Virus record (IMG/VR): IMGVR_UViG_3300042887_001790
Location: 1-31,014 of that record
Reading direction: 5' to 3' (one strand)
Source: a virus
Length of the DNA stretch: 31,014 bases
Part shown: piece after piece, positions 3,803 to 23,365 of the stretch
Numbering within the stretch: the first letter of the stretch is position 1
Layout: the number at the start of each line of letters is the position of its first letter
Made by a program: the position numbers and the translations under genes
Notes under the pieces: generated by a model
Database searches by the model: none
What the model was told of the DNA's origin: nothing
The model's input: only the letters and a program-made list of their open reading frames with translations

Positions 3803-4504
3803 ATGAACCTAGTGATCAAGTTCCCCACCCGCAATCGTCCCGACAAGTTCAAGGCTGTGTTTACGCGCTATCTTACCTTCCTCAGTGGACGGCATGATGT
3901 GCGTTTCATCGTCACGATGGACGAAGACGATCCCACGATGAACAACCCAGAGATGCAGCAGTGGTTTGCCACTCGCGCACAGAACGCACAGATTGAGTGC
4001 TTCTACGGCAACTCCAAGAGCAAGATTGAGGCTTGCAACGCGAACCTAGAGGGCGTGGACGGCGATGTGCTGCTTCTTGCGTCCGATGACATGGTTCCCG
4101 TTCAGATGGGTTACGATGACATCATTGCCAAGTGCTACGAGCAGGCTTTTCCTGACTACGATGGCGCAATCAAGTTCTGGGATGGACTACGCCCAAAGGA
4201 AGACCTGCTGATGACACTCACTGTCATGGGCTTCCCGCTGTACAAGCAGTTTGGCTATATCTACAATCCTGAATACAAGTCCGTGTACTGCGACAACGAG
4301 CAGACACAGGTTTGCGCTGCGCTGAACAAACTGCGCCGATGCGACCTGTGCATTATTCAGCACCAGTGGAGCGGAGAGCCGTGGGACGAACTCCATGCAA
4401 GGAATGAGAACAAGGAAATGTATGGTGTGGACGGTGAAACCTTCAAGCGGCGCGCCGCAAACAAGTTTGATATGGAGGTAATGTTCAATGCAACAACTCG
4501 CTAA
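3803..4504 (+). CDS. glycosyltransferase-like protein (GT-A fold, family 2-like)
   Basis: Probable GT-A enzyme that moves a sugar from a nucleotide donor. It opens with VIKFPTRNRPDKF, a typical first strand with a basic loop. FIVTMDEDDP gives the second strand, and GDVLLLASDDMVP (acidic pair near residues 95-96) is the metal/nucleotide site. No membrane segment is evident. The start has GGAG about 7 nt upstream within GGAGATTTATA, an 11-nt leader repeated before the gene at 14738. Base use is core-like. The end overlaps the following methyltransferase (ATG 4488) by 17 nt. Acceptor and sugar are not predictable. Confidence 0.7.
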   Translation: MNLVIKFPTRNRPDKFKAVFTRYLTFLSGRHDVRFIVTMDEDDPTMNNPEMQQWFATRAQNAQIECFYGNSKSKIEACNANLEGVDGDVLLLASDDMVPVQMGYDDIIAKCYEQAFPDYDGAIKFWDGLRPKEDLLMTLTVMGFPLYKQFGYIYNPEYKSVYCDNEQTQVCAALNKLRRCDLCIIQHQWSGEPWDELHARNENKEMYGVDGETFKRRAANKFDMEVMFNATTR

Positions 4505-5117
4505 AATAGACCACTACTGGCAAGATCCGATGTTTGAGGAGGGATATTTCACCTATCCCAATCTTTATTTTGCTGCGGTTCGTCACTTTCCGACCAACAG
4601 TCATTTTGTGGAGGTTGGTTGTTGGAAGGGACGCTCTGCTGCATTCATGGCGGTAGAAATTCACAATTCAGGGAAGTCTATTCAGTTTGATTGTGTGGAT
4701 ACATGGAACGGAAGTGTCACAGAAGAGCCACATCAAAATGATTCGTGGGTGAAATCAGGAACTCTATACGAACGGTTCTTGTCAAACACCGACCGTGTAA
4801 AGCATATCATCACACCAAAGCGCGGAGATTCAGTTGAAGTCGCTAGCACATATGAAGATAATTCGTTGGATTTTGTTTTCATAGACGGCGATCATCGTTA
4901 TGAGTGTGTAAAAGCAGATATAGAAGCGTGGTTGCCAAAGATGAAGTCAGGAAGCATATTGGCTGGTCACGATTACGGATGGTGCGAAGATGTCCGTAGA
5001 GCAGTCCATGAAGTTTTGGGAGAAGGTACCGATTCATACACAGATCGTTATGGAATAGGTTACAAGTCATACGATGATCCTTGGGGCGAAGGCTGCTGGA
5101 TCATAAACATTGATTGA
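4488..5117 (+). CDS. SAM-dependent class I methyltransferase, copy 1
   Basis: Methyltransferase_24-like enzyme, common in sugar and antibiotic O-methylation. The SAM-binding strand and loop are HFVEVGCWKGRSAAFMA (from residue 39); an acidic residue follows in FDCVDTW; and LDFVFIDGDHRYECVKAD (from residue 128) with GSILAGHDYG gives the later strands. Length is 209 aa. The start overlaps the preceding glycosyltransferase. It is a paralogue of the next gene, with which it shares FEEGYFTYPNLY/FEEGWFTYPNLY and the end DPWGEGCWI. A loop near the C-terminus (SYTDRYGIGYKSYD) is absent from copy 2. Base use is more AT-rich than the flanking glycosyltransferases, suggesting transfer. Substrate unknown, probably a glycan. 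Confidence 0.8.
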   Translation: MQQLAKIDHYWQDPMFEEGYFTYPNLYFAAVRHFPTNSHFVEVGCWKGRSAAFMAVEIHNSGKSIQFDCVDTWNGSVTEEPHQNDSWVKSGTLYERFLSNTDRVKHIITPKRGDSVEVASTYEDNSLDFVFIDGDHRYECVKADIEAWLPKMKSGSILAGHDYGWCEDVRRAVHEVLGEGTDSYTDRYGIGYKSYDDPWGEGCWIINID

Positions 5118-5125
5118 GGAAAATC

Positions 5126-5185
5126 ATGCCAGTATCAGCAAGTAAAATAACGGAGACTATGTTCAATGTCACAGCAACCAATTAA
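5126..5185 (+). pseudogene. fossil 5' end of the downstream glycosyltransferase gene
   Basis: The first codons, MPVSASKI, match the intact gene start at 5759 (MPVPASEI), including the preceding GAGGA. The frame then runs into the second methyltransferase copy and stops at 5185 (19 codons). This is what a tandem duplication leaves when the repeated unit ends just inside the next gene. It is probably not functional as a protein, although its SD and ATG could still attract ribosomes. Confidence 0.7.
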
Positions 5186-5750
5186 TCATTTTTGGCAAAA
5201 CTCCATGTTTGAGGAAGGGTGGTTTACCTATCCTAATTTGTATTCCCATATGGTTGGTATATTTCCTTCCAATAGTCATTTTGTTGAGGTTGGTTCCTGG
5301 AAGGGACGATCTGCTGCATTCATGGCAGTAGAGATTCATAATTCAGGAAAGAGTATTCGTTTTGATTGTGTTGATCCGTGGAATGATCTTGATCCACATC
5401 CATTAATTCAAAATGATCCGTGGGTGCAGAGCGGAAAATTGTACGATAAGTTTTTGTTCAACATTGATAAAGTGAAACACATCATCACCGCAAAGCGCGG
5501 CGAGTCCATTTCTATAGCAAATGAATACAACGATAAATCACTAGATTTTGTCTTTATTGATGGTGATCACCGATACGAATGTGTCAAGGCAGACATTGAG
5601 GCTTGGCTACCAAAGGTCAAGCCTGGTGGTATTTTAGCGGGACACGATTATGGGTGGAATGATGTTACTAGGGCAGTACAAGAAGTATTAGGAACAAAAG
5701 TTAAATCAGATCCTTGGGGCGAAGGCTGCTGGATCACAAACATTGATTGA
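5166..5750 (+). CDS. SAM-dependent class I methyltransferase, copy 2
   Basis: Second copy of the Methyltransferase_24-like enzyme (194 aa). It keeps HFVEVGSWKGRSAAFMA, FDCVDPWND, LDFVFIDGDHRYECVKAD and GGILAGHDYGW, so the SAM pocket looks intact. It differs from copy 1 in the acceptor-side segment after VDPW and lacks the extra C-terminal loop, hinting at a different acceptor. The start ATG follows CGGAGACT by about 6 nt. AT-rich like copy 1. It probably acts on a sugar of the glycan made by the island. Confidence 0.8.
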   Translation: MSQQPINHFWQNSMFEEGWFTYPNLYSHMVGIFPSNSHFVEVGSWKGRSAAFMAVEIHNSGKSIRFDCVDPWNDLDPHPLIQNDPWVQSGKLYDKFLFNIDKVKHIITAKRGESISIANEYNDKSLDFVFIDGDHRYECVKADIEAWLPKVKPGGILAGHDYGWNDVTRAVQEVLGTKVKSDPWGEGCWITNID

Positions 5751-5758
5751 GGACAATT

Positions 5759-6397
5759 ATGCCAGTACCAGCAAGTGAAATCAAGTTCAGCATTCTGATT
5801 CTGTCCATCCCTTCCCGCTTTGAGTCGCTGAAGGCGGCGGTTAATCACCTACAGGAACAAGCCGATGCCACGGGGCAGGGCAAGTCTGTTGAGATTCTTG
5901 TGCTGCTTGACAACAAGTCCAAGAGCATTTCCGAGAAGCGCAATGACCTCCTGCAAATGGCACGGGGCAAGTACATCGCTTTCTTGGATGACGATGATGC
6001 GGTCAGCAAGGACTACATGAGCGCGATCCTGAAGGCTATTGACGAGAACGATGTGGACTGTATCTCGTTCAATCAGTGGTGCAGTATCAACGGCGAACCG
6101 ATGGATGTGGAGTTCGGCATCGGTAATCCTCACGGACAGTTGTGGCGTGACGAGGACGGATTCCTTGGCGACATCAAGCGTCCACCTTATCATATGTGCG
6201 TGTGGCGGCGAGATATCGCGGTGAGCGAGGCTTTCAATTCCGTGTATGGAGCCAACGGTCAGTCCACGGAAGACATTGACTGGCTCATGCGTCTGTATCC
6301 CAAGATTCAGACCGAGCATCACATCCCTGATGCCCTGCATGGCTATATTTACAACTCAAAGACCACGGAATCGCTAGTTCCGCAGGATCAGCAGTGA
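5759..6397 (+). CDS. family 2 glycosyltransferase (GT-A)
   Basis: Probable family 2 glycosyltransferase of 212 aa. Visible are FSILILSIPSRFESL (first strand), EILVLLDN, the SISEKRNDLLQMARGKYIAF signature, and the acidic cluster DDDD (residues 77-80) that would hold metal and nucleotide sugar. STEDIDWLMRLY may supply the catalytic acid of the C-terminal half. ATG 5759 is chosen over the upstream in-frame codon at 5747 because its first codons are duplicated at 5126 with the same upstream GAGGA. The stop overlaps the next gene's GTG. Core-like base use. Confidence 0.8.
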   Translation: MPVPASEIKFSILILSIPSRFESLKAAVNHLQEQADATGQGKSVEILVLLDNKSKSISEKRNDLLQMARGKYIAFLDDDDAVSKDYMSAILKAIDENDVDCISFNQWCSINGEPMDVEFGIGNPHGQLWRDEDGFLGDIKRPPYHMCVWRRDIAVSEAFNSVYGANGQSTEDIDWLMRLYPKIQTEHHIPDALHGYIYNSKTTESLVPQDQQ

Positions 6398-7086
6398 AGG
6401 TAATCTCCTACAGCCTGTGGGGAGACAACCCCACATATACGGTCGGTGCCGTTCGCAACGCGGATCTGGCGGCGCAACTGTTCCCTGATTGGACTTGCGT
6501 GTTTTACTGCTTTCAGTCCGTTCCTGCCGAAATAATCGCGCAGTTAGAATCTCGTCCGAATGTGCTTGTGCGGCGGGTAGAGGGTGATTACAATACCGCA
6601 GACAGCCGTGGTATGTTCCACCGTTTCCTTCCCGCAGACGAAGAGGGCGTAGAGTGCATGATGAGCCGCGATACAGATTCCCGTCTGTCTGAGCGTGAGC
6701 GGCTGGCGGTGGACGCTTGGATTGCCAGTGGAGCGGATCTCCATGTGATGCGCGACCATCCGTATCACGGGGTTCCCATGCTTGGCGGTATGTGGGGCGT
6801 GAAGGGCGGCAAACTCAAGGGGATTGCCCGTGACATGGAAGAGTTTCAGCCGAGCAGCGACAAGGGACAGGACCAGTCGTTCCTGTGGGAATGGGTTTGG
6901 GACAAGGTAAAGGACGGCGAACTGGCGGTCTGCGTTCACGATCCTTTCTTTCAGAAGTCTCCATTCCCCGATGGCGCAAAGCGCGGAGAAGAAAATGGTG
7001 GCGTGTGGTTTGTCGGACAGGTCTTTGATGAAAACGACAAATACAACAGCCAAAGTGATTTAGACATGGTGAAAGGACAACCGTAA
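6394..7086 (+). CDS. putative glycosyltransferase-like protein with DTD motif
   Basis: Not assigned to a named family with certainty. The start MKVISYSLWGDNPTY and the first Rossmann-like strands resemble GT-A enzymes, and MSRDTDSRLSERER carries a DxD-type motif (residues 93-95). HPYHGVPMLGGMWGVKGG and GQDQSFLWEWVW follow, as often seen in phage and bacterial sugar-cluster proteins of this size (230 aa). The start is GTG in a GTGA overlap with the previous stop. Core-like GC; the next gene marks a sharp shift to AT-rich sequence. Confidence 0.6.
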   Translation: MKVISYSLWGDNPTYTVGAVRNADLAAQLFPDWTCVFYCFQSVPAEIIAQLESRPNVLVRRVEGDYNTADSRGMFHRFLPADEEGVECMMSRDTDSRLSERERLAVDAWIASGADLHVMRDHPYHGVPMLGGMWGVKGGKLKGIARDMEEFQPSSDKGQDQSFLWEWVWDKVKDGELAVCVHDPFFQKSPFPDGAKRGEENGGVWFVGQVFDENDKYNSQSDLDMVKGQP

Positions 7087-7808
7087 TGGATAGAATACTT
7101 TTTGTTCATCATCATTTGGGAATGGGAGATCACATCATGTGCAATGGTCTTGTCAGGTCTTTGCTCAATGATGGCAAAGTTTATACTGGTGTTTATGTCT
7201 TTGCAAAGGACAAAAATGCTTCTAGAGTCTCCCGTATGTTTGATGATGATCCGAGGATACAAGTAGTCCCGATCCCATCATCTGAAAACGAAATTTCATA
7301 TGTGAACGCGGTCATCAGCAAGTATGGAATAGTTGATTTCGTTCGTTGCGGATTTGGTGCCATAGACAACCTCATGTCTATGGGACTGATTTCTAACTTT
7401 GATGAAGCATTCTATATCGGGGCAGGAATACCGTTTGATGCAAAATGGTCGCAGTTCAAGATTAGACGAGACTACAAAGAAGAACAGAGAGTTTTGAACA
7501 AACTGAACCCATCGGAAAAGCCCTTCATGTTTGTACATGATGATCCTTCTAGAGGTTTTGTCCTCAATCCACCAAATCCACACGGGCTTCAGATCATCAA
7601 GAACGATGTAACGGTAGACCTATTTGACATGATTGGTGTGTTGGAGGCTGCATCTGAAATCCATTGCATGGAGAGTTCGATAAGCAATCTCATAGAGTTT
7701 TTGCCGAATGTGGTATGTCCTTTGTATATGCACCGAGGAATCCGAGTAGACGAAAATGGAAAGTCACAAAATGCTACCAGTAGAATGAAAAGGTGGACGA
7801 TTGTATGA
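7086..7808 (+). CDS. GT-B glycosyltransferase-like protein (heptosyltransferase/GT9-like)
   Basis: 240 aa. The start ILFVHHHLGMGDHIMCNGLV is the typical first strand and loop of GT9/heptosyltransferase-like GT-B proteins. FMFVHDDPSRGF begins the second Rossmann half, and ECASEIHCMESSISNLIEF-type sequence (residues about 190-205, motif CMESSISN) occupies the nucleotide-sugar site. It is shorter than bacterial heptosyltransferases (about 320-350 aa). Clearly AT-rich compared with the genes before it, marking the left edge of the AT-rich stretch. Its stop overlaps the next ATG. Confidence 0.6.
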   Translation: MDRILFVHHHLGMGDHIMCNGLVRSLLNDGKVYTGVYVFAKDKNASRVSRMFDDDPRIQVVPIPSSENEISYVNAVISKYGIVDFVRCGFGAIDNLMSMGLISNFDEAFYIGAGIPFDAKWSQFKIRRDYKEEQRVLNKLNPSEKPFMFVHDDPSRGFVLNPPNPHGLQIIKNDVTVDLFDMIGVLEAASEIHCMESSISNLIEFLPNVVCPLYMHRGIRVDENGKSQNATSRMKRWTIV

Positions 7809-8623
7809 CGGTTTTCAAGAATCTGATCATCGGATCTACATCTCAACTGGCAAATTACTTTCCTCAAGAGTTCGTTCGTGTTTCTTCTCGTTCGGAACTA
7901 GCAAGCCATTGCAACGAGTCTTGGGATACGGTTTATGTGTGTTTTGGTGAAAATCGTACCTATCTTGCTGATTCGAAAGACTCTTCAGTCACGGACGAGT
8001 TTTATCGCATAAACCATGATCTAACATTAAGTGTCGTGAATATGTTCAAGAACAGTTGCAGGAGAGTGGTGGTTTACTCCACAGCAGAACTGTGGAACGA
8101 TTGCAATGGTGCTGTTGGAATTGATACTCCGTTTCAGTACAAGCCCAACCATTACATACAGTCAAAGTACAATATGACAAAGGAACTAAAAGACAAGAGC
8201 AGATACCCGAATGTCAGCATTGCTTATCCATTCAACTTTAATGGGGTATACAGAAAGGGCGACTTTCTGTTTGGTAAGGTTTTTGGTTCTATACTGAACA
8301 GAACTGAAATACAGTTGGGAGACACCTACTACTACAGGGATATAGTTCATCCTAAATGGGCTGCTGAAGAGAGCATGGTTGATAGAGTAGGTGTAGATTT
8401 CATCATTGGTTCTGGAAGACTTGTGTATGTAAATGATCTGATACGATGTTTGTATTCGTCTTTCGGTCTTCGATATGAAGATATGGTCACTGAAAGAATC
8501 GTCACTCCATCAATCTATAGGAATCGCTTGTTTTATTCGGAAACAAAGGCAAAAAACAGTGATATCGAATCTCTACTGACATCTCTTGTTGCCGAACTGA
8601 AGGAGTTTTCTCATGCAAGTTGA
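7805..8623 (+). CDS. NAD(P)-dependent epimerase/dehydratase-like (SDR) protein
   Basis: 272 aa from ATG 7805, which overlaps the previous stop as ATGA; the in-frame GTG at 7793 is less likely. Extended-SDR traits: an N-terminal strand with a reduced nucleotide loop (LIIGSTSQLA), VVVYSTAELW supplying the catalytic Ser/Thr strand, and YIQSK (Y117, K121) as the YxxxK pair, then IAYPFNFNGVYRKGDF and a YRDIVHP substrate loop. The glycine loop is weaker than GxxGxxG, so cofactor use may be altered. It probably modifies a nucleotide sugar together with the nearby nucleotidyltransferase. Confidence 0.65.
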   Translation: MTVFKNLIIGSTSQLANYFPQEFVRVSSRSELASHCNESWDTVYVCFGENRTYLADSKDSSVTDEFYRINHDLTLSVVNMFKNSCRRVVVYSTAELWNDCNGAVGIDTPFQYKPNHYIQSKYNMTKELKDKSRYPNVSIAYPFNFNGVYRKGDFLFGKVFGSILNRTEIQLGDTYYYRDIVHPKWAAEESMVDRVGVDFIIGSGRLVYVNDLIRCLYSSFGLRYEDMVTERIVTPSIYRNRLFYSETKAKNSDIESLLTSLVAELKEFSHAS

Positions 8624-8984
8624 AGTATCTTTGGGTGAAGTAGTGGACAAGTATACGATCCTTCTGATAAAGGAGCGCATGATAACTGATCATAGTAAAC
8701 TATTGAATGTCAAGAAAGAGCGTCAATACCTTGAAGATGTTCTCAAGCATGAAAATTTTTCTGACACGGAGATGCTTGACCGATTGACTCTGGTGAACGA
8801 AAAGTTGTGGCACATAGAGGATCGCATTAGAATCAAGGAATCATTGAAACTGTTCGATGATGAATTTATTGCTTTGGCTCGTTCCGTGTACCGCACCAAT
8901 GACGAAAGGGCAAGGATTAAAAGACAGATAAACAGTGCGTATGGGTCTAACTTCGTAGAAGAGAAGCAGTACACCGATTATTGA
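8613..8984 (+). CDS. DUF6165-like protein (123 aa)
   Basis: The opening VSLGEVVDKYTILLIKERM matches, from memory, the DUF6165 signature (VSxGELxDKxTILxIK), a family of unknown function often found beside LPS and heptosyltransferase genes. The rest is predicted to be largely helical and charged (ERQYLEDVLKHENF, EDRIRIKESLKLF, DERARIKRQINSAYG). The ATG at 8613 overlaps the preceding SDR gene by 11 nt. No catalytic motif is evident; a structural or regulatory role in glycan assembly is possible. Confidence 0.6.
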   Translation: MQVEVSLGEVVDKYTILLIKERMITDHSKLLNVKKERQYLEDVLKHENFSDTEMLDRLTLVNEKLWHIEDRIRIKESLKLFDDEFIALARSVYRTNDERARIKRQINSAYGSNFVEEKQYTDY

Positions 8985-9012
8985 AATAGTCAAGCGTCCA
9001 AACAGAGGCGAC

Positions 9013-9756
9013 ATGAATACCAAAATTAATATACTCATTCCTATGGCGGGTCGCGGAGAAAGATTTTCTTCTGTTGGTTATGATCTTCCGAAACCACTAA
9101 TAGAAATCAATGGGCGACCTATGATAGAATGGGCATTGCGTAGTTTAGATGTGGATTTTCAACTACACAATTTCATTTTTGTGGTACGAGACTATCAAAA
9201 CGATGAAATCAATGATCGTCTTTCATCTGTTTTGAACACTCTAGTGCCGAACAATACAACCATAAAGATTGATTATGTCACAGAAGGACCAGCGTGTACT
9301 TGTTTGCTTGTTCGTGACATCATCAATGTAGCAACTCCTCTTATGATCGGAAACTGTGATCAAATTATGAGATGGAATGGATCATACTTTGTAAGCAGTT
9401 GCCTTAATTCTCCATATGATGGCGTGGTTGTTACTTATGATGAAAGTACTCCAAAGAACAGTTACGCAAAATTAAATTCTCGTGGAGATGTGATACGAAT
9501 TGAGGAAAAAAATGTAATAAGCAATGTTTCATTGAATGGCATACATTTTTGGAAACACGGTTTTGATTTTGTAAGTTCTGCGGATTCTATGATAAAAAAC
9601 AATGAGCGATACAACAATGAATTTTATGTTGGTCCAACATATAACCATATGATTAGTGCGGGAAAGAGGATTGGCATTTTTCATATTCCGCGAGAATGTC
9701 ATAATCCAGTTGGAGTGCCTAGCGATCTTGGTGTTTTTTTGGAGAGAAGTAAATGA
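9013..9756 (+). CDS. sugar nucleotidyltransferase
   Basis: NTP-transferase fold enzyme (247 aa) that would activate a sugar- or alditol-phosphate with NTP. It shows the nucleotide-binding signature MAGRGERFSSVGYDLPKPLI (residues 11-30, with K27 in PKPL), NGRPMIEWAL, and NCDQ with D116 as the likely metal ligand. The remainder fits the RmlA/GCD1-like type without the hexapeptide C-terminal domain. AGAGG precedes the ATG by about 6 nt. AT-rich. Its neighbours, an SDR and a cupin, suggest it supplies a special nucleotide-linked precursor. Confidence 0.8.
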   Translation: MNTKINILIPMAGRGERFSSVGYDLPKPLIEINGRPMIEWALRSLDVDFQLHNFIFVVRDYQNDEINDRLSSVLNTLVPNNTTIKIDYVTEGPACTCLLVRDIINVATPLMIGNCDQIMRWNGSYFVSSCLNSPYDGVVVTYDESTPKNSYAKLNSRGDVIRIEEKNVISNVSLNGIHFWKHGFDFVSSADSMIKNNERYNNEFYVGPTYNHMISAGKRIGIFHIPRECHNPVGVPSDLGVFLERSK

Positions 9757-10082
9757 AGAAGCACAAACTTTCTGATATGTTTCGTGGATGGTTCGTTGGT
9801 GATTTTGAGCCTTCCGTGCTGCAAACAAAAGAGTTTGAAGTTGGTCTACTCACCCACAAGAAGGGTGAGAAGTGGGAAGAACACTATCACAAGGTCGCTA
9901 CGGAAATCAATGTCTTGGTTGAAGGAAGCATGACGGTGAACGGCATACATATAGAGGTTGGAGACATCTTTATCATTGAACCAAACGAATCCTCCGCTCC
10001 CATATTCTTGGAGGATTGCAAAGTGCTGTGTGTAAAAACACCTTCTGTGATTGGAGATAAATATGCAACTATTCGTGAATGA
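9753..10082 (+). CDS. single-domain cupin protein
   Basis: 109 aa. The first cupin motif is complete: G38, H44, H46, E51, G58 in GEKWEEHYHKVATEINVLVEG-type spacing (G-x5-H-x-H-x4-E-x6-G), giving three metal ligands. The second motif is degenerate (VGDIFIIEPNESSAP), without the usual His, so metal binding may be incomplete. Cupins in sugar clusters act as epimerases, isomerases or small-molecule binders. The start overlaps the nucleotidyltransferase stop (ATGA), and the end overlaps the RuBisCO-like gene by 20 nt, which suggests a shared pathway. Confidence 0.75.
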   Translation: MKKHKLSDMFRGWFVGDFEPSVLQTKEFEVGLLTHKKGEKWEEHYHKVATEINVLVEGSMTVNGIHIEVGDIFIIEPNESSAPIFLEDCKVLCVKTPSVIGDKYATIRE

Positions 10083-11256
10083 AAACGAGATTGATTCGGA
10101 CAAGTATTTTGTTGTTACTTACAAATTGGAGTCGGACAAGAACCTCCGTGATGCTGCGTGGAACATTGCAATCGGGCAGAGCGTAGGCAATCCAAATGTC
10201 AGAAATCGTTGGGAGACAGAGGATTTGTTCAAGAATCACTCTTGTCTGATACTCGCTGACGAGACTGAACTACAGAACAAGACATCAGGAGAAGTCAAGA
10301 TAGCGTTCCCTGTGATCAATACTGATTGGGAAACAGATGGAATCAGCCATCTGCTCTGCCAGATCATGGGCGGTCATGTTGATATTGACTTGGTGAGGAA
10401 GTGCCGCATAGTCAAGTTGGATCTTCCGCAAAGTGTCACCAAGCACTTTGCTGGACCAAAGTTTGGCATCAGCGGTATGAGGAAGTTCACGGGTCAATAC
10501 GAAAAGCCACTGCTTGGCGCGATCATCAAGCCCAAGATTGGTATCACTCCCGAAACCCTGTTGGACATGGTTAAGGAACTCGTTGATGGCGGCGTTGATT
10601 TCATCAAGGAAGACGAGATCATGTCCAATCCGTCTTTCTGTCCACTAGACAAGCGCGTGGACATGATTTCAAACTACCTGCGCTCACAGTCTCGGAATGT
10701 AGTATTCTGTCATACCATCAACTGCGATCCGCACATTCTCGCGGATCGTGTCCGTAGAATCCATTCGCTTGGCGGAAACGGTGTACACATCAATGTGTGG
10801 AGCGGATACGGTGCGTACAACAGCATCAGGAAACTAGACCTTCCGATCTACCTGCATTTCCAAAGCAGCGGTGCAAAGGTTGTGACAAGCGTAAACAATC
10901 AGTTCAGCATCAGTTGGTCTGTGATTTGTCAGTTGGCTACTCTCATGGGTGTAGACACCATTCAAACAGGAATGGTCGGTGGCTACAGCAATGACGATAC
11001 AGATGAGATACTTGAATGCATTCGCGTTCTTCGTGCAGGAAATACGGTTCCTGCTTTGAGTTGCGGTCTTCACCCTGGTCTTGTTGACAAGATCACTTCA
11101 CTGGTTGGCAACGATTACCTTGGAAATGCTGGTGGTGCTATTCACGGACACCCAAGCGGAACCCTTGCTGGTGCCAAGGCAATGCGTCAGGCTGTTAATA
11201 ATGTATACGGAACAGAGTACACACAAGCAATTGAAAGATGGGGAAAAATTTTGTGA
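10063..11256 (+). CDS. RuBisCO-like protein (RuBisCO large-subunit superfamily, form IV-type)
   Basis: 397 aa from ATG 10063 (GGAG 6 nt upstream; TTG 10051 rejected). The family core is clear: FAGPKFGI, then PLLGAIIKPKIGITPE (K156 and K158 for RuBisCO K175 and K177), GGVDFIKEDE (K182, D184, E185 for the carbamylated K201 and metal ligands D203/E204), and SCGLHPG followed by NAGGAIHGHPSG for the phosphate-binding glycines. By eye the loop-6 lysine K334 is replaced by glycine (MVGGY, residues 304-308), and RuBisCO H294/R295 by N/V (HINVW, 242-246). It should therefore not fix CO2 but catalyse an enolase, isomerase or decarboxylase-type step. Its GC is core-like inside an AT-rich stretch. It lies in a sugar cluster next to a cupin. 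Confidence 0.88.
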   Translation: MQLFVNENEIDSDKYFVVTYKLESDKNLRDAAWNIAIGQSVGNPNVRNRWETEDLFKNHSCLILADETELQNKTSGEVKIAFPVINTDWETDGISHLLCQIMGGHVDIDLVRKCRIVKLDLPQSVTKHFAGPKFGISGMRKFTGQYEKPLLGAIIKPKIGITPETLLDMVKELVDGGVDFIKEDEIMSNPSFCPLDKRVDMISNYLRSQSRNVVFCHTINCDPHILADRVRRIHSLGGNGVHINVWSGYGAYNSIRKLDLPIYLHFQSSGAKVVTSVNNQFSISWSVICQLATLMGVDTIQTGMVGGYSNDDTDEILECIRVLRAGNTVPALSCGLHPGLVDKITSLVGNDYLGNAGGAIHGHPSGTLAGAKAMRQAVNNVYGTEYTQAIERWGKIL

Positions 11257-12182
11257 AGGTCTTGTACATCAATAAGGGTTGGGATACAGACTATCAGGCA
11301 TCATCCGTGATGCATGGATTGAGAACTCTTCTTGGAAAAGACCTAGTAGATTTTCCAAAAATGGAAAATATGTACAAGTCTTCGTTGCCTTCTACCCATC
11401 ACCAAGAATTGCAATTACGGTCAACCATGTATGGTCGTGGCTTTGGATATCCTTTTACACTTGATGATGATGATATAGACAGAACCGAAATAGTAAAAAA
11501 AATCAAAGACAGATATTTTGATGTTATCTTATTCGGTCCTTGCAACAACTCATTGTTGATTGGTGATTGGAACCTTAGCGTATTTAATGTAGCCGCAGAG
11601 TGCGGAAACAGAGTGTGTTTGATTGATGGGGATGATTTAGATGCAGGCACTCACGAAATAATTCATCACCATCTGTTACAGGTAGTTTCTAAAACTAATG
11701 GAGTGTATTTCAAACGAGAACTACAATCTTGTACAACAAAACATTTAGCACCAATATCGTTTTCGTTTCCTGTAGAAAAAGCCACGCTCACTCAACCGAC
11801 CAAGAGCAATGTGTTTGCTATGGAATCCTCTATAAATGTCGGATACAAATTTGAAAAAGAGGATGACTATTATTCAGAATACAGGAAATCTTATTTTGGA
11901 AAAACAGGCAAGCGAGGTGGATGGGATTGTCTTCGTCACTACGAAATACTATTCAATAGAGCAATTCCATATTTTGAAAACCTAGATCAACTACCCACAA
12001 ATACCATGTTTAGATTTCCTAGACAGTTGGTCAAAGACGGAATGCGTTGTCTCAATTCTGATGGGACGGTAGATTCTAGTTGTTATTTTGATGTAGAAGC
12101 CCAACTGTTCCGATACAGCATGGAAAACCTTACTACGATTTCAATGGCTCGGTATATGATTAATAGGATTTTTGGAGAATAA
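11253..12182 (+). CDS. putative glycosyltransferase-like protein, paralogue 1
   Basis: About 309 aa. I prefer GTG 11253 (GTGA overlap with the RuBisCO-like stop, GGGGA about 8 nt upstream), giving MKVLYINKG; ATG 11238 is the in-frame alternative. No certain family. The Rossmann-like opening, FDVILFGPCNNS, CLIDGDD and the C-terminal FRFPRQL block resemble GT-B/CgeB-like proteins of surface-glycan loci. It is paralogous to the next gene: both carry YY-(S/G)-(E/D)-Y...KSYFG, a GW-x-C-x-RH segment and an end of the form LTT-x-(S/A)-MA-x-Y. Strongly AT-rich. Confidence 0.5.
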   Translation: MKVLYINKGWDTDYQASSVMHGLRTLLGKDLVDFPKMENMYKSSLPSTHHQELQLRSTMYGRGFGYPFTLDDDDIDRTEIVKKIKDRYFDVILFGPCNNSLLIGDWNLSVFNVAAECGNRVCLIDGDDLDAGTHEIIHHHLLQVVSKTNGVYFKRELQSCTTKHLAPISFSFPVEKATLTQPTKSNVFAMESSINVGYKFEKEDDYYSEYRKSYFGKTGKRGGWDCLRHYEILFNRAIPYFENLDQLPTNTMFRFPRQLVKDGMRCLNSDGTVDSSCYFDVEAQLFRYSMENLTTISMARYMINRIFGE

Positions 12183-12183
12183 T

Positions 12184-13182
12184 ATGCTGAAAATATTGTT
12201 TGCTACGGCAATAGGCGATGCTAAATCATATGATTATTTAACAGATGGTATTCTTCATGGACTGAAAACCAGACCAGATCAGTTTGAAGTGTATGAGTGT
12301 TTTGCCATGAAGCACTTGTATAAAAAGTATCCAAACGAAGATGTTCATGCTTTGTTTGGTAGAAAAAATCTTGATGGAGAACCAAACGAATTGGTTTTGA
12401 CCGACTGCATTAAAATGATCTCTGACAAATTTTTTGATGTGATCATTTTTGACTGGAGAACATCTAGTCCTTTTTGGCATAGAAACGGGCATTGTCCGTA
12501 TTTTACCGAAACTATGGCTATTAGGAATGCCGCTTTCGCTTCCTATCCCGCAGACAAAATTGTATTTTTAGATAGCAGTGATGATAACATCGGAAAATAT
12601 GATATGTTTGTGGAAGAGTTTCTAGGAAGATCAACATACTTCAAGAGAGAACTCTACATTGATGATCCATATTTTCATCCAATAGACATACCATTTGCTG
12701 CTGAAAAGGGAAGTCCTCTTGTCCTCTCCGATTGCAAAGAAAAGTTCCTAGCCCGTGTCATACCCGAGAAAAAAGAGACATATGTGTTCAAAGATGAGTC
12801 ATCGTACTACGGTGATTATGCAAAATCATATTTTGGTGCTACATGGAAGAAAATAGGATGGGGATGCTATCGTCATTCTGAGATAGTTTTTTCTTCTTGC
12901 GTTCCAGTGTTTCCAGATATAAAGGAATGCCCCAGAAGAACTCTAACATTCTTTCCGAAGCAGATGTTTGAAGAAGTGCTTGATCGTGGGATATTGAACC
13001 AAGGTACTTTTAGGATACAAAAATACTGGGATCAATATGCATACGAAGATTTTGCAATCAATGAATCCAATGTTGATGTGTCGTGGTATGATGATATACT
13101 CACACGGATATACCATCATGCCCACAAACATCTAACAACCACTGCGATGGCAGACTATGTTTTGTCAAAACTGAACACATAA
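12184..13182 (+). CDS. putative glycosyltransferase-like protein, paralogue 2
   Basis: 332 aa from ATG 12184 (GGAG about 7 nt upstream); an upstream in-frame ATG at 12172 lies within the previous gene and is less likely. It opens with MLKILFATAIGDAKSYD and has FDVIIFDWRTSSPFW, KIVFLDSSDD and a C-terminal block with SYYGDYAKSYFG, GWGCYRHSEIVF and TLTFFPKQMF. These match paralogue 1 in order, indicating an old tandem duplication. It resembles GT-B-type sugar-cluster proteins, but no donor motif is decisive. About 30% GC in a 60-base line I counted. Confidence 0.5.
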   Translation: MLKILFATAIGDAKSYDYLTDGILHGLKTRPDQFEVYECFAMKHLYKKYPNEDVHALFGRKNLDGEPNELVLTDCIKMISDKFFDVIIFDWRTSSPFWHRNGHCPYFTETMAIRNAAFASYPADKIVFLDSSDDNIGKYDMFVEEFLGRSTYFKRELYIDDPYFHPIDIPFAAEKGSPLVLSDCKEKFLARVIPEKKETYVFKDESSYYGDYAKSYFGATWKKIGWGCYRHSEIVFSSCVPVFPDIKECPRRTLTFFPKQMFEEVLDRGILNQGTFRIQKYWDQYAYEDFAINESNVDVSWYDDILTRIYHHAHKHLTTTAMADYVLSKLNT

Positions 13183-13196
13183 ACGGACAGAATATT

Positions 13197-13781
13197 ATGA
13201 AAATAGTACAGATAGGTGCGTGTAGGGGGAATGATGATCTGACACCGATCATCAGTAGTAATGAAATTGAAAAACTCATAATAGTAGAACCTATGTGTGT
13301 TCACAATGAAGCATTGGAACTATGCTACGCTTCTATCAAAAACAAGACTATAGAAAATGTAGCGATATCCTGCACAAACGATGCACACATTGATTTTTAC
13401 TATCATCCAGATGACGGTCCTGGATACGAAGTATCATCAACCGATATCAATCACATCATAAAACACAGACATCTACAACCAGATAGAATAATCAAACTAC
13501 GAGTTCCATCAATCGGAATAAATGATCTGCTGAAAAAGCACGGCATGAACGAATTGGACATACTGTTTATAGACGCTGAAGGACTAGACGACCAACTAAT
13601 CCGATCAATAGATTTTTCCGTATTCAAGATACACAACATATTCTACGAAAACCTACACCTGAAATCAGATGTGAATCGGTATTTGCGAGACTTGGGATAT
13701 GTTGTCTATGAAAACATCGGTTCTAACGGGTGGATGAATTTGGCGGTTATGAACCCAGATCAGATAAACTCACTGTCATAA
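13197..13781 (+). CDS. FkbM-family methyltransferase
   Basis: 194 aa SAM-dependent methyltransferase of the FkbM type, which O-methylates sugars and polyketides. Motifs: KIVQIGACRGNDD (SAM loop, residues 2-14), LIIVEPMCVHNEAL (acidic residue binding the SAM ribose), NVAISCTND, and the FkbM-typical VPSIGINDLLKKHG followed by LDILFIDAEGLDDQLI. No membrane segment. A short 14-nt gap separates it from the previous gene. Together with the duplicated methyltransferases it implies several methylated positions in the glycan. Confidence 0.8.
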   Translation: MKIVQIGACRGNDDLTPIISSNEIEKLIIVEPMCVHNEALELCYASIKNKTIENVAISCTNDAHIDFYYHPDDGPGYEVSSTDINHIIKHRHLQPDRIIKLRVPSIGINDLLKKHGMNELDILFIDAEGLDDQLIRSIDFSVFKIHNIFYENLHLKSDVNRYLRDLGYVVYENIGSNGWMNLAVMNPDQINSLS

Positions 13782-13790
13782 AGGACTATC

Positions 13791-14711
13791 ATGGAAACCA
13801 AGGACTTTCTATTCTTTAACTATTCGTGGGTTCCTAACTCAACATTCTACTTTGAGTCCTTTGCAAAGAAAGGACACTCTGTTGACATAGTTACGGAACA
13901 TACCCTACATTCATTTGTGCCAAAGCATAAGTACAAGAATGTGGTTCTGTATCTGCATGAGCCGTGGAGTCTTCCAATAACAGACCATCTCATAAACACA
14001 TATTTTAGCGATGCTGTGTTGATTCAGCATGACGATACCGATTTTGAGGATGTACAGTATTGGAGTACTAGGGTTCCTGATTTGGTCATGCAGAGAGAAT
14101 ATACTGACAATACAAAAAATCCCCGTGGCTCTGCTATGGGTGCTTTTCATTTTCCGATCAATTCTTGGCACGATCCTGCCATAACCGAGAAGCCCTATGA
14201 CCTATGTTTCTTGGCAAACATGACACACCCAAGACGAGTGCTGTTTTCTAAAAAGATGATGGAGTTGATGAACGGCAGACTGAATCACTTGGTTTGGAAA
14301 GTGAACATAGAGCCTCATGTGAACACCCCTTCACAGTTTTATAACAAGAATGCTTTTGTTGAACAGAAGGAGGACACAAAGACCATCGTGAACAAGACCA
14401 AAATTGGACTCAACGATTTTGGAAACTCATACGAGCAGTGGAGAACATGGGAATACGCCAGTGCAGGAACTGCCATACTCATGCCAAAGATGAAGACCAA
14501 ATGTGTGTCCGAAGGATTCATGCCCTTTAATGAGTACATGATATTCCGTGATGATTACTCTGATATGGAAGAGAAGATTCTTTTCCTCTTGGAGAATAAT
14601 CGGTATTTAGAGTACGGTCGCATGGCTAAAGAAGCATATGACACCCGACACAATCCCGAAAAGTGTTTTGAGTTTTACTACAATCAAGTAATGCAGTACG
14701 CTAAACAGTAA
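13791..14711 (+). CDS. glycosyltransferase (GT-B type, CgeB/GT1-like)
   Basis: 306 aa. The N-terminal half has FFNYSWVPNSTFYFESFAKK and NVVLYLHEPW; the C-terminal half has DLCFLANMTHPRR at the domain junction and EQWRTWEYASAGTAILMPKM, the E-x-A-A/S-G-type helix that binds nucleotide sugar in GT-B enzymes. It ends in a helical tail (ARMAKEAYDTRH-like residues near 280). ATG 13791 follows AAGGA by about 6 nt. Less AT-rich than the two genes before. Donor and acceptor unknown. Confidence 0.7.
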   Translation: METKDFLFFNYSWVPNSTFYFESFAKKGHSVDIVTEHTLHSFVPKHKYKNVVLYLHEPWSLPITDHLINTYFSDAVLIQHDDTDFEDVQYWSTRVPDLVMQREYTDNTKNPRGSAMGAFHFPINSWHDPAITEKPYDLCFLANMTHPRRVLFSKKMMELMNGRLNHLVWKVNIEPHVNTPSQFYNKNAFVEQKEDTKTIVNKTKIGLNDFGNSYEQWRTWEYASAGTAILMPKMKTKCVSEGFMPFNEYMIFRDDYSDMEEKILFLLENNRYLEYGRMAKEAYDTRHNPEKCFEFYYNQVMQYAKQ

Positions 14712-14737
14712 TCTTGTATTGCTTGGAGATTTATACC

Positions 14738-15577
14738 ATGAGTAATTCAAAAAACACTATACTGATCCGAGGATCCCTAGCATACGAAAAGTATCCCAAT
14801 TCCTTTGTCCATGATACAATTCCTACCATCAGAGAGTGGTTTACTGGTCAATTGGTTGTCAGCACTTGGAAAGGACAAGAACAGCATCTGCGTGGATTGG
14901 AAGGCATGATTGATGATGTTGTGTTAAGCGATGATCCTGGTTTTGGATGCATACAGTCTTACGATAGGCAACTGATCTCGTATAAAGCAGGAATGGAGCG
15001 TTGTTCGGGAGATTTAGTGTTTGTTGCCAGAGCAGACTTCTGTTTGAAGAAGAATCCCTTTCACCTGTGGGAAAAGGTTCCTGCAAGACGGGGAAACGAT
15101 ATGAAGGTTTTTGAAAACCGAATAGTCATAGGAAACATGATGACTATTTCCCCCAATAAAGCAGAACCCAAAATTTCTAACTTCAGACCATCTGACTGGA
15201 TACAGATGGGAACAAAATCTGACCTGCTGAAGTGGTCAGGAGTACTACAGAAATCGCATGAATTACATTCTGCTGCAACAGGTCTTACTGATTTGTCTAC
15301 AACGGAATATAAGAGTGAGGCATACGGAAGCGAGCAACTGTGGTTGATCAGTCTTCTGAACAAATATGTGAGTGAAGACATAACACTCACCAATTACTGG
15401 TCCTGTGATCCTTATCTTGTGTGGTGCGCCTTGATTAACAACTTTGCAGTATTTAATACAAGGTCCACCATCGGTGCGTACAATTTGAATTGGGATTTTC
15501 AGCCAGAGTTCCATCCTTGGTACATGACGGAACAAGAGTATTTTCAGATTAACGAACAACTGAACGGATCAAGATGA
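14738..15577 (+). CDS. WavE-like lipopolysaccharide synthesis protein
   Basis: 279 aa from ATG 14738, which has GGAGA within GGAGATTTATA, the same 11-nt leader as the gene at 3803; the in-frame upstream ATG at 14714 lacks a site. WavE-type features: ILIRGSLAYEKYPNS, TGQLVVSTWKGQE, SYDRQLISYKAGMERCSGDL and VFVARADFCL (acid-containing strand), with YGSEQLWLISLLNKYV later. WavE proteins occur in LPS core loci (named from Vibrio cholerae) and are presumed glycosyltransferases. The stop overlaps the next ATG by 4 nt. Confidence 0.65.
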   Translation: MSNSKNTILIRGSLAYEKYPNSFVHDTIPTIREWFTGQLVVSTWKGQEQHLRGLEGMIDDVVLSDDPGFGCIQSYDRQLISYKAGMERCSGDLVFVARADFCLKKNPFHLWEKVPARRGNDMKVFENRIVIGNMMTISPNKAEPKISNFRPSDWIQMGTKSDLLKWSGVLQKSHELHSAATGLTDLSTTEYKSEAYGSEQLWLISLLNKYVSEDITLTNYWSCDPYLVWCALINNFAVFNTRSTIGAYNLNWDFQPEFHPWYMTEQEYFQINEQLNGSR

Positions 15578-16035
15578 AATACATTTCTCATAGAGGAAAT
15601 CTAACTGGAAGAAATCCCGATAGAGAAAACAGTCCGACTTACATAGAGGAAGCAATTTCTGCTGGATATGATGTTGAGATTGATGTGTGGTACATTGATG
15701 GAGAGTTTTATCTGGGTCACGATGAACCACGGTATGGGGTGTGTTTGGACTGGTTGTTGAAACATCCACTGTGGTGTCATGCAAAAAATTTGGATGCATT
15801 GGAACGCATGACTTCTTCTGGAGTGCATTGTTTTTGGCACGAAAATGACCGCTTTACCCTAACATCAAAATCCATACCTTGGTGTTTCCCCAACAATTGG
15901 TCTTCCAAAGGAATCACCGTTGTTTTTGATGCCCCGTGTTCCGAAATTTTAAGTAAGAGTGTATTGGGTATATGCACAGATGATCCTGTTTCGTGGAAGA
16001 AGTTTAACGACACAAAAAACAATTTGGAAATTTGA
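15574..16035 (+). CDS. glycerophosphodiester phosphodiesterase/PI-PLC-like protein, short
   Basis: 153 aa. ISHRGN (H6, R7) with RENSPTYIEEAI, YDVEIDVW (E35, D37) and LGHDEP (H49, D50) match the catalytic part of the GDPD/PI-PLC superfamily, with acid-base His and metal-binding Glu/Asp. HENDRFTLTS and WCFPNNW follow. It is about half the length of a bacterial GDPD, so it may act on a small phosphodiester, for example in glycan or lipid decoration. ATGA overlap with the WavE-like gene. AT-rich, the last gene of the AT-rich stretch. Confidence 0.6.
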   Translation: MKYISHRGNLTGRNPDRENSPTYIEEAISAGYDVEIDVWYIDGEFYLGHDEPRYGVCLDWLLKHPLWCHAKNLDALERMTSSGVHCFWHENDRFTLTSKSIPWCFPNNWSSKGITVVFDAPCSEILSKSVLGICTDDPVSWKKFNDTKNNLEI

Positions 16036-16037
16036 TT

Positions 16038-17129
16038 ATGTACGACTATCTGATTGTTGGTTCTGGTCTGTTTGGCGCGATATTCGCACGGCAGATGACC
16101 GATGCGGGTGCGCGGTGTCTTGTCGTGGACAAGCGCAGCCACATTGGAGGAAACTGCTACACCCGAGATGTGGGCGGAATTCATGTCCACGAATACGGTC
16201 CACACATTTTCCACACAAGCAGTGACCGCGTGTGGGAATACATGAACAGGTGGACGCGGTTCAATCACTTTGTGTATCGCCCCCGTGCGATACACGGCGA
16301 TAACCTGTACTCATTCCCCATCAATATGTTTACCCTGTATCAGTTGTGGGGCGTGAAGACTCCGCATGAGGCACAGGAAAAATTGGCTCAAGTGCGGATT
16401 GCGATACCTTCTCCGTCCAACCTAGAGGAGTGGGTGCTGTCTCAAGTGGGCGAAGAGATTTACGAGAAGTTCGTGAAGGGCTACACCACGAAGCAGTGGA
16501 ACCGCGATCCCAAGGATCTGCCTGCATCCATCATAAAGCGGCTTCCAATTCGGCTCACCTACGATGACAACTACTTTGAAGACAAATATCAGGGCATCCC
16601 TGTTGACGGATACACCCCAATCTTTGAAAAACTCTTGAGCGGTATCCCCCTTGAGACAGGAGTTGATTTTCTGAAAGATCGTGAGCGTCTGGAAGGCATG
16701 GCTCGAAAGGTTGTTTACACGGGAGCAATAGACGAATTCTTTGGTTCCGATCTTGGCAGTCTTGAGTGGAGAAGTCTGCGGTTTGAACACCAGACGCTAC
16801 AGATTCCCGACTATCAGGGAGTCGCAGCAGTAAACTATACTGATGCGAAAATTCCGTATACCCGTGTGGTGGAACACAAGCACTTCACTTTTGGGAAACA
16901 GGATCATACTGTTGTCACCCGCGAGTATCCGCAGAATTGGGATAGCACAAAAGAGAAGTTCTATCCTGTTGTAGACGATAGAAATAACGAACTGTATATT
17001 CAGTACAAGAACAGAATAGACACTGACAGATACATATTCGGTGGTCGTTTGGCAGACTACAAGTATTACGATATGCACCAAGTGGTGGGGTCTGCCCTGA
17101 CACGCAGCGAAAAGGAAATTAAGCGATGA
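16038..17129 (+). CDS. glf: UDP-galactopyranose mutase
   Basis: 363-aa FAD enzyme converting UDP-galactopyranose to UDP-galactofuranose. The dinucleotide motif YLIVGSGLFGAIFARQ, VVDKRSHIGGNCYT, the HEYGPHIFHT loop, YSFPINMFT, KGYTTKQWNRDP and the end RYIFGGRLADYKYYDM are all diagnostic. The length agrees with bacterial Glf (about 365-390 aa). ATG 16038 is preferred to the TTG at 16032. Core-like GC resumes here. The stop overlaps the epimerase ATG, so the two act as a pair that makes the Galf donor. Confidence 0.95.
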   Translation: MYDYLIVGSGLFGAIFARQMTDAGARCLVVDKRSHIGGNCYTRDVGGIHVHEYGPHIFHTSSDRVWEYMNRWTRFNHFVYRPRAIHGDNLYSFPINMFTLYQLWGVKTPHEAQEKLAQVRIAIPSPSNLEEWVLSQVGEEIYEKFVKGYTTKQWNRDPKDLPASIIKRLPIRLTYDDNYFEDKYQGIPVDGYTPIFEKLLSGIPLETGVDFLKDRERLEGMARKVVYTGAIDEFFGSDLGSLEWRSLRFEHQTLQIPDYQGVAAVNYTDAKIPYTRVVEHKHFTFGKQDHTVVTREYPQNWDSTKEKFYPVVDDRNNELYIQYKNRIDTDRYIFGGRLADYKYYDMHQVVGSALTRSEKEIKR

Positions 17130-18067
17130 AAGCACTAGTAACAGGTGGAGCGGGTTTCATTGGATCAAATCTCGTGGACAGATTGATTGCGGATGGTCAC
17201 GAAGTCACAGTGATCGACAATGAATCTTCTGATGCACATGATCAGTTCTATTGGAATCCTGCTGCCAAGAACTACAAGTACGACATCAATGATTACACAA
17301 TGGTTCGTAAACTGTATGAAGGTGTGGACACCGTTTTCCACCTTGCTGCGGAAGCCCGTATTCAGCCGTGCATTGTTGATCCGCTAAAGGCTGTGGAAGC
17401 CAATATGCTTGGCACAGCCAGCGTGTTGCAGTGCGCTCGGGTCTGTGGTGTGAAGCGTGTGATCTATTCTTCCACCTCGTCTGCATACGGACTGAAGAAT
17501 ACTCCACCGCTTGTTGAAACCATGCCCAACGATTGCCTGAATCCGTATTCCGTGTCCAAGACAGGCGGTGAAGAGTTGTGCAAGATGTACTCTAAACTGT
17601 ACGGCTTGGAGACAATCATCTTTCGCTACTTCAATGTCTACGGAGAGCGTCAGCCACTGCGAGGGCAGTACGCTCCAGTGATTGGCATCTTCCTGCGTCA
17701 ACGAGCCGCAGGAGAACCCATGACGATTGTGGGTGATGGAGAACAGCGGCGGGACTTCACCTATGTTGGTGATGTAGTGGAAGCCAACATCAAGGCATCA
17801 TATTTTGTTGCTCCTGAATATGATATAATCGACAATGGTTCCTGTAAGACTTATCGGGGTTGGAATTGGGGTCAGATTTACAACATTGGCACAGGAACCA
17901 ACCATTCCGTGAATCAGATTGCTGCACTCATGGGTGGTGAGACTGTAAATATTCCTCCCCGCGCAGGAGAATCCCGAATTACTCTAGCAAATGCAACCAA
18001 GGCAAAAAATCAACTTGGGTGGACTCCGAAAGTTCGTCTTGAAGACTGGATTACCGAGCATAAATAA
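17126..18067 (+). CDS. NAD-dependent nucleotide-sugar epimerase (GalE-like)
   Basis: 313-aa extended SDR. TGGAGFIGSNLVDRL (G7, G10, G13) binds NAD; HLAAEARIQ, YSSTSSAYG and YSVSK (Y141, K145) form the active site; FRYFNVYGERQ and RRDFTYVGDVV are typical of UDP-glucose/UDP-GlcNAc 4-epimerases and related dehydratases. Next to glf it most simply supplies UDP-galactose. Substrate could instead be another UDP- or GDP-sugar. The last codons overlap the ATAAATA box at 18060. Confidence 0.85.
   Translation: MKALVTGGAGFIGSNLVDRLIADGHEVTVIDNESSDAHDQFYWNPAAKNYKYDINDYTMVRKLYEGVDTVFHLAAEARIQPCIVDPLKAVEANMLGTASVLQCARVCGVKRVIYSSTSSAYGLKNTPPLVETMPNDCLNPYSVSKTGGEELCKMYSKLYGLETIIFRYFNVYGERQPLRGQYAPVIGIFLRQRAAGEPMTIVGDGEQRRDFTYVGDVVEANIKASYFVAPEYDIIDNGSCKTYRGWNWGQIYNIGTGTNHSVNQIAALMGGETVNIPPRAGESRITLANATKAKNQLGWTPKVRLEDWITEHK
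18060..18066 (+). promoter_or_regulatory. T4-type late promoter box ATAAATA
   Basis: ATAAATA (preceded by C) matches the late-gene -10 box TATAAATA at 7 of 8 positions. It lies 24 nt before the ATG at 18090, which leaves room for a start site and the AAGGAGA ribosome site. It overlaps the epimerase stop codon. Recognition would need phage late sigma and co-activator genes, which are not in this window. Confidence 0.55.
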
Positions 18068-18089
18068 CCGTACAAGGAGATCGTGAACA

Positions 18090-22737: not shown

Positions 22738-22759
22738 TTATCATAAAGGATATCAGCAA

Positions 22760-23344: not shown

Positions 23345-23365
23345 AATTAAGTGGAATAATAGTAT

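Follow-up and report, generated by a model that had tools for sequence, protein, structure and literature searches.

What might a RuBisCO-like protein (RLP) contribute to a phage gene cluster concerned with glycans and nucleotide sugars? The question is raised by one virus record, IMGVR_UViG_3300042887_001790, and the window analysed here is the whole of that 31-kb IMG/VR record (31,014 nucleotides). The original prediction, made from the letters alone, proposed that an open reading frame at 10063-11256 encodes a non-carboxylating RuBisCO relative that makes an unusual sugar precursor for a phage-directed glycan. That role is supported as a probable one, and the analysis extends beyond it: relatives occur in hundreds of viral contigs, a sugar nucleotidyltransferase (NTase) is their near-obligate partner, and in related modules NTases fused to RpiB or HAD domains stand in the place of the RLP.

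An RLP within a T4-like glycan island

The window has the backbone of a T4-like phage, with an exonuclease, clamp, clamp loader subunits and RegA to the left of the island, and a gp43 polymerase, UvsX and a gp41-like helicase to its right. The polymerase shares approximately 49% identity with cyanophage polymerases. The stretch from RegA to the polymerase is occupied by a glycan island of approximately 3.8-19.3 kb (3803-19286), containing glycosyltransferases, methyltransferases, a UDP-galactopyranose mutase, SDRs, an NTase, a cupin and the RLP. Most of this island has a G+C content of 38-43%, against about 50% outside, and the kilobase encoding the RLP stands out from its AT-rich surroundings at 47%. 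Elsewhere in the window (22559-24532), a restriction endonuclease II-like gene (phrog_28079) adjoins an N6/N4 DNA methylase, possibly as a phage restriction-modification pair. The features of the island that bear on the RLP are:

7793-8623, plus strand: SDR or NAD-dependent epimerase-like protein, 276 aa, a weak match
8613-8984, plus strand: DUF6165 protein, upstream of the NTase
9013-9756, plus strand: sugar nucleotidyltransferase, RmlA/IspD-like, closest solved structure 4evw
9753-10082, plus strand: small cupin, 109 aa, overlapping both the NTase and the RLP
10063-11256, plus strand: RLP, 397 aa, of a clade new among the references tested, with the metal centre K156/K158/K182/D184/E185 kept
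11238-12182, plus strand: protein without an assigned family, 314 aa, overlapping the 3' end of the RLP gene
14714-15577, plus strand: WavE-type glycosyltransferase (LPS synthesis)
15574-16035, plus strand: short GDPD-like phosphodiesterase-type protein with HRGN, ExD and GHD motifs
16032-18067, plus strand: UDP-galactopyranose mutase together with a GalE-like SDR

The predicted context of an overlapping cupin, an upstream NTase, an SDR and flanking glycosyltransferases was recovered, with the qualification that the cupin and SDR score slightly under Pfam's own cut-offs. The SDR may act at a later step, on the activated sugar. The protein at 11238-12182 has no match in Pfam, NCBIfam or PHROG, and the GDPD-like protein, which is of half length, has none in Pfam. 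Some other loci have relatives of the WavE-type glycosyltransferase close to the RLP (family 32, seven loci within three genes).

The RLP gene itself is intact and complete, beginning at an ATG (10063) preceded by a GGAG ribosome-binding site, against a mechanical call that begins at a TTG (10051). The claimed RuBisCO large-subunit core is borne out by Pfam RuBisCO_large (PF00016, E=2.8e-39, far past chance), although the match to RuBisCO_large_N is weak, and solved RuBisCOs and RLPs align with the protein across most of its length. Structure prediction agrees: an AlphaFold model built from a 32-sequence family alignment (pLDDT 90.5, pTM 0.89) found form III RuBisCOs as its top Foldseek matches (TM 0.89; 2d69), followed by MtnW and the Chlorobium RLP. 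Hence membership of the RuBisCO large-subunit superfamily is confirmed. Every match to a curated NCBIfam model nevertheless falls far under its cut-off, so no named equivalog fits. By E-value the form III RuBisCO model ranks first (190 bits, where the cut-off is 497), and the MtnW/YkrW models (135 against 513.6; 169 against 409) and the OiaX/OiaC-group model (156 against 700) fall similarly short. The family profile, in turn, scores the Chlorobium and R. palustris RLP2 structures below form III.

Active site and place among the RuBisCO forms

Active-site residues were surveyed in 45 family sequences, with loop 6 and the strand carrying H294 assigned from MAFFT and HMMER alignments. The metal centre is kept in all 45 (equivalents of K175, K177, K201, D203 and E204), corresponding in the window to the originally recognised KPK (K156/K158) and KxDE (K182/D184/E185) motifs. 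The lysine with its two acidic ligands (K201, D203, E204) is therefore present throughout, with carbamylation of K182 being predicted. The equivalents of S379 and of the phosphate-site glycines G381 and G403 are likewise kept in 45 of 45. By contrast, six replacements are invariant across the same sequences (E60G, T65N, N123G, H294Q, K334Y and G380C), such that the carboxylase residues E60, N123, H294, R295 and K334 have become G, G, Q, S or K (R in one), and Y. In RuBisCO, R295 is a phosphate ligand; its equivalent is K in 37 sequences, S in seven and R in one, the serine being that of the window RLP's own subclade, a point that weighs against the enolase or isomerase reading favoured below. 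The equivalent of H327 is H in 34 and Q in 11, and N-P takes the place of T65-W66 in the C1-phosphate site. Residues G38, N43-P44, G104, H242, N244, Q267, Y308 and C334 of the window protein are invariant across the family.

The original prediction correctly had H294 and R295 replaced, by Q267 and by S268 (lysine in most relatives), but was wrong to read the loop-6 lysine as glycine, as the K334 equivalent is an invariant tyrosine (Y308, in '...GGYS'). The H294Q replacement should be taken as a multiple-alignment result, as in pairwise HMMER alignments to MtnW it is H265 of the RLP that pairs with the histidine assigned to H294. The retention of the metal-centre residues alongside the replacement of those for carboxylation suggests that the machinery for enolisation has been kept, and that for CO2 addition has not. 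Judged by these residues, the family would belong to form IV in the broad sense, as a RuBisCO homologue lacking the carboxylation residues. Selection on the gene is strongly purifying (dN/dS of about 0.05-0.23 in the four pairs with usable values).

A phylogeny was inferred with 24 reference proteins, representing forms I, II, II/III and III, MtnW, Deep-Ykr-like proteins (our label for MtnW-related sequences under the MtnW cut-off) and OiaX-like proteins. The RLP family forms one side of a 100/100 branch, apart from all 24, and is hence a distinct clade among the sampled references rather than a lineage nested within forms I-III; the description of this clade as new is relative to the set tested, which left out IV-Photo, IV-NonPhoto, IV-GOS and the R. 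rubrum enzyme. The expectation of a form IV-type protein therefore held as regards a non-carboxylase, judged by residues, but not as regards the named MtnW and apiose/OiaX groups. Membership of MtnW/YkrW and of OiaX was rejected on both the curated cut-offs and the separate clades, and that of the Deep-Ykr 5-methylthioribulose-1-phosphate (MTRu-1P) isomerases on the placement of the sampled Deep-Ykr-like sequences elsewhere in the tree.

The comparison of residues separates these groups further. MtnW (the 2,3-diketo-5-methylthiopentyl-1-phosphate enolase, YkrW) shares with the RLP family the change of E60 to glycine, the loss of K334 and a kept Mg2+ centre, but has lysine at N123 and valine at K177 where the family has glycine and lysine. 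The sampled Deep-Ykr-like proteins lack K177 and keep N123 and H294. OiaX (3-oxo-isoapionate-4-phosphate decarboxylase) acts on a sugar-acid phosphate and has a comparable profile score, but in the OiaX-like proteins sampled H294, R295 and K334 are retained and K177 is lost, the reverse of the pattern here, and OiaX is set in catabolic operons with acid-sugar kinases. An earlier likeness may be found in the 65 RuBisCO homologues joining no known form that were reported from the Global Ocean Sampling in 2007 (PMC1821046), which are also marine, from a small size fraction, and altered at several active-site residues; they are likened by description, not by sequence.

Could the protein instead be a true CO2-fixing viral RuBisCO, as the 'rbcL' labels of AMG surveys suggest? 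Form III is both its best curated model by E-value and its best fold match, and one soil study reported that a viral rbcL, which may or may not belong to this family, was active when co-expressed with rbcS (PMC12615777). Yet E60, N123, H294 and K334 are replaced in 45 of 45 sequences, the family lies in a clade apart from forms I-III, and the context is one of glycans, with no phosphoribulokinase or small subunit identified nearby. This reading is extremely improbable, and was rejected on the invariant residues and the tree.

Distribution, partners and replacement of the RLP

Far more relatives of the RLP came from viral contigs than from cellular genomes, a ratio that is indicative only, as the scans give lower bounds and differed in design. 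In IMG/VR, a first scan recovered 168 stretches and a profile-led scan 332, hence the count is at least 332, pattern scans giving lower bounds. Identities of the fetched viral relatives range over 54-94%, and almost all of them are full length; a T4 core gene is visible within the stretch fetched for 28 of 80 viral loci. One scan of approximately 85,000 bacterial and archaeal genomes yielded 24 loci, from SAR11, Legionella, Azospirillum, nanoarchaea, Verrucomicrobia, Elusimicrobia and others; one of these (L105, 28% identical) groups with Deep-Ykr-like proteins. Another, a contig of a 'Sphingobacteriales' MAG (L100), has phage-like genes besides the RLP (a GroES-like gene and many small ORFs), and was probably derived from a phage and sorted into a bacterial bin. 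A search of 50,697 cultured-phage records returned no relative, PHROGs gave no match, and the BFVD viral structures contained no RuBisCO fold, only weak TIM-barrel matches. The crown of the RLP tree consists of viral members, among which those from SAR11 and Bacteroidota are interspersed, a pattern that points to virus-cell transfer in one direction or the other.

The cellular distribution is patchy (2 of 197 Pelagibacteraceae and 1 of 77 Legionellaceae), as might be expected were the RLP non-catalytic or decayed cargo of host-derived glycan islands. This is nonetheless very improbable, given the strong purifying selection, the invariant catalytic residues and an ORF that runs without a break in 79 of the 80 viral loci fetched. 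The sole exception among these (L048, 10001-11167) has the frame split into two ORFs, through sequencing error or decay; in another locus (L050) the gene is interrupted by the contig end.

Gene neighbours were counted in 105 loci (81 viral and 24 cellular), cut at 10 kb either side or at contig ends. In 90 of these (71 of the 81 viral and 19 of the 24 cellular) the RLP has an NTase within three genes, so that the search for the gene order elsewhere returned a near-constant partnership. A GDPD-like protein is within the same distance in 67 loci, being farther away in the window, and a cupin in 53, the usual order being NTase-cupin-RLP-GDPD. The nearest solved relative of the NTase, 4evw, goes by the name 'nucleoside-diphosphate-sugar pyrophosphorylase' and is uncharacterised. 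The NTase of the window scores above the Pfam cut-off for IspD, the family of a Campylobacter jejuni enzyme that makes CDP-6-D-fructose directly from D-fructose-6-phosphate and CTP (a PF01128-type NTase; PMC10918830). Among sampled RLP-linked NTases the top identity to that of the window is 55%, and the RLP, in a comparable set, reaches 83%; the NTase seems to be diverging faster, which suggests recombination or a change in NTase specificity. In five SAR11 loci (L088, L091, L093, L094 and L095) the RLP is flanked by two NTases, the upstream one in L094 being divergent and lacking the usual GxGxRF motif.

The cupin raises the alternative that the RLP is of the methionine-salvage type, either an MtnW enolase or a Deep-Ykr MTRu-1P isomerase, working with a cupin sulfurylase to recycle methylthioadenosine during infection. 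The adjacency of RLP and cupin does resemble the Rhodospirillum rubrum pair, in which a Deep-Ykr RLP, the isomerase of 5-methylthioribulose-1-phosphate, has a cupin as its working partner (PMC4958253). Against this, the family is in a 100/100 clade separate from MtnW and Deep-Ykr-like proteins, a cupin is near the RLP in only half of the loci and also adjoins RpiB-type modules that have no RLP, neither an MTA phosphorylase nor MtnA was identified, and the context of NTase and glycosyltransferases is constant. Hence methionine salvage is improbable.

Three Legionella species (L101-L103) carry the RLP-NTase pair without a cupin or GDPD-like gene, beside a divergent LicD gene. The minimal unit is therefore RLP plus NTase, which makes a common metabolite of the host the likely substrate. 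The donors from which LicD proteins take phospho-groups are CDP-linked, hence the neighbour hints, by analogy, at a CDP-linked product; LicD was rejected as a general partner of the RLP, being seen in the Legionella loci alone. These loci also bear on whether the RLP might be an OiaX-like decarboxylase, as in apiose breakdown, which removes CO2 from a phosphorylated 3-oxo sugar acid to leave a short ketose phosphate for activation by the NTase. OiaX employs the same metal chemistry, matches by profile, and is among the closest plasmid proteins by identity. But a two-gene unit would then need a sugar-acid phosphate uncommon in hosts, neither an acid-sugar kinase nor a dehydrogenase is a constant partner, and the OiaX-like proteins, with their converse set of active-site residues, form a separate 100/100 clade. 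We consider decarboxylation unlikely.

The strongest indication of function comes from modules in which the RLP is replaced. Cultured cyanophages have related NTase and GDPD-like genes in T4-like glycan islands, but no RLP: instead, an RpiB or HAD domain is fused to the NTase where the RLP type has a separate protein (SynMITS9220M01, Bellamy, S-CAM9, DSL-LC03 and B23). In the Synechococcus phage SynMITS9220M01 (L194, 7007-8164) the NTase carries a fused RpiB/LacAB isomerase domain, beside PfkB and HAD genes. This RpiB type recurs in 44 viral contigs (L198-L241), usually in the order HAD-PfkB-NTase~RpiB-cupin-GDPD; no RpiB was found in RLP loci and no RLP in RpiB loci, nor did we find a description of the cassette's function in the literature. 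In S-CAM9 the fusion is to a HAD domain, and HAD-containing architectures, the commonest form, account for 66 of 80 NTase-first viral loci. The HAD_2 domain, mostly at the NTase N-terminus (L193, 5344-6729; L196, 5344-6717), has by eye a beta-phosphoglucomutase-like DxDGV motif. HAD-fused NTases fall inside a supported clade with RLP-linked NTases, HAD genes are present in nine RLP loci as well, and the GDPD-like gene accompanies all three module types in viruses, as well as occurring in SAR11. Hence RpiB- and HAD-fused NTases stand in the RLP's slot in relatives, and this replacement is the main, albeit correlational, support for the RLP being a sugar-phosphate isomerase that feeds the NTase. 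RpiB acts at C1-C2 and RuBisCO-type enolisation at C2-C3, meaning that the slot is replaced but not necessarily by the same reaction; as the HAD architecture has no obvious isomerase, the slot could hold enzymes for different sugars.

A candidate role in nucleotide-sugar biosynthesis

On balance, residues and neighbouring genes favour the RLP being a non-carboxylating sugar-phosphate enolase or isomerase acting upstream of the NTase, with somewhat better than an even chance of this being correct; the argument from adjacent genes is correlational. We infer the catalysis, reaction class, substrate, order of steps, nucleotide and glycan target of the module along the following lines. Firstly, K182 would be carbamylated, binding Mg2+ together with D184 and E185. 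Secondly, this site would abstract the proton adjacent to the carbonyl group in a phosphorylated keto-sugar supplied by host central metabolism, assisted by K156 and K158. Thirdly, reprotonation would yield a rare sugar phosphate, either an isomer or an epimer. Fourthly, the adjacent NTase (9013-9756) would join this product to a nucleotide, enabling a glycosyl- or phosphosugar-transferase to place the activated sugar on a glycan, with the cupin, GDPD-like protein and SDR presumably serving accessory or later steps. By analogy, the closest functional precedent would be the R. rubrum isomerase (PMC4958253), another RuBisCO-fold, cupin-linked enzyme acting on a phosphorylated pentulose, although the RLP studied here has a sugar nucleotidyltransferase as its constant partner and is set in glycan assembly.

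The two enzymes might also act in the opposite order, in which case the RLP would isomerise a keto sugar already linked to an NDP and not a free sugar phosphate. The constant presence of the NTase leaves the order of the steps free, and the rebuilding of T65-W66 as N-P alters the C1-phosphate site. However, G381, G403 and S379 are kept, and every RLP substrate known to us is a small phosphorylated sugar or sugar acid, so action after the NTase is rather unlikely. Action of the RLP on the free sugar phosphate remains the preferred reading.

The remark that no description of a phage RLP in this setting was known holds in part. No paper describing the RLP-NTase module was found, in a search whose reach left out most subscription journals, and nothing relevant was found on RLPs of SAR11 or Legionella. 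A global-ocean AMG paper does not mention RuBisCO, and a Lac Pavin phage paper was rejected as a precedent because its RuBisCO is cellular. Viral rbcL genes do, however, appear in AMG surveys, clustering with 'RbcL-like' proteins in landfill viruses (PMC12607003) and being read as carbon fixation or photosynthesis in soil (PMC12615777), the Great Salt Lake (PMC8506154) and an estuary (PMC13390420).

It is tempting to suggest, at slightly less than an even chance, that this largely viral branch of RuBisCO performs a reaction new to the fold, supplying a rare sugar phosphate for nucleotide-sugar biosynthesis, that it serves one phage glycan module as a substitute for RpiB-type isomerases, and that it accounts for part of both the unassigned ocean RuBisCO homologues and the viral 'rbcL' annotations. 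The jobs of RLPs known to us are few, and all in salvage or catabolism. This family points to a biosynthetic role, in the making of surface-glycan precursors. Its members are the type of protein that AMG pipelines would label rbcL, though they lack the carboxylation residues, hence viral 'rbcL' annotations deserve re-checking. The two-gene RLP-NTase units of cultured Legionella offer a compact, culturable test case for the function of the family.
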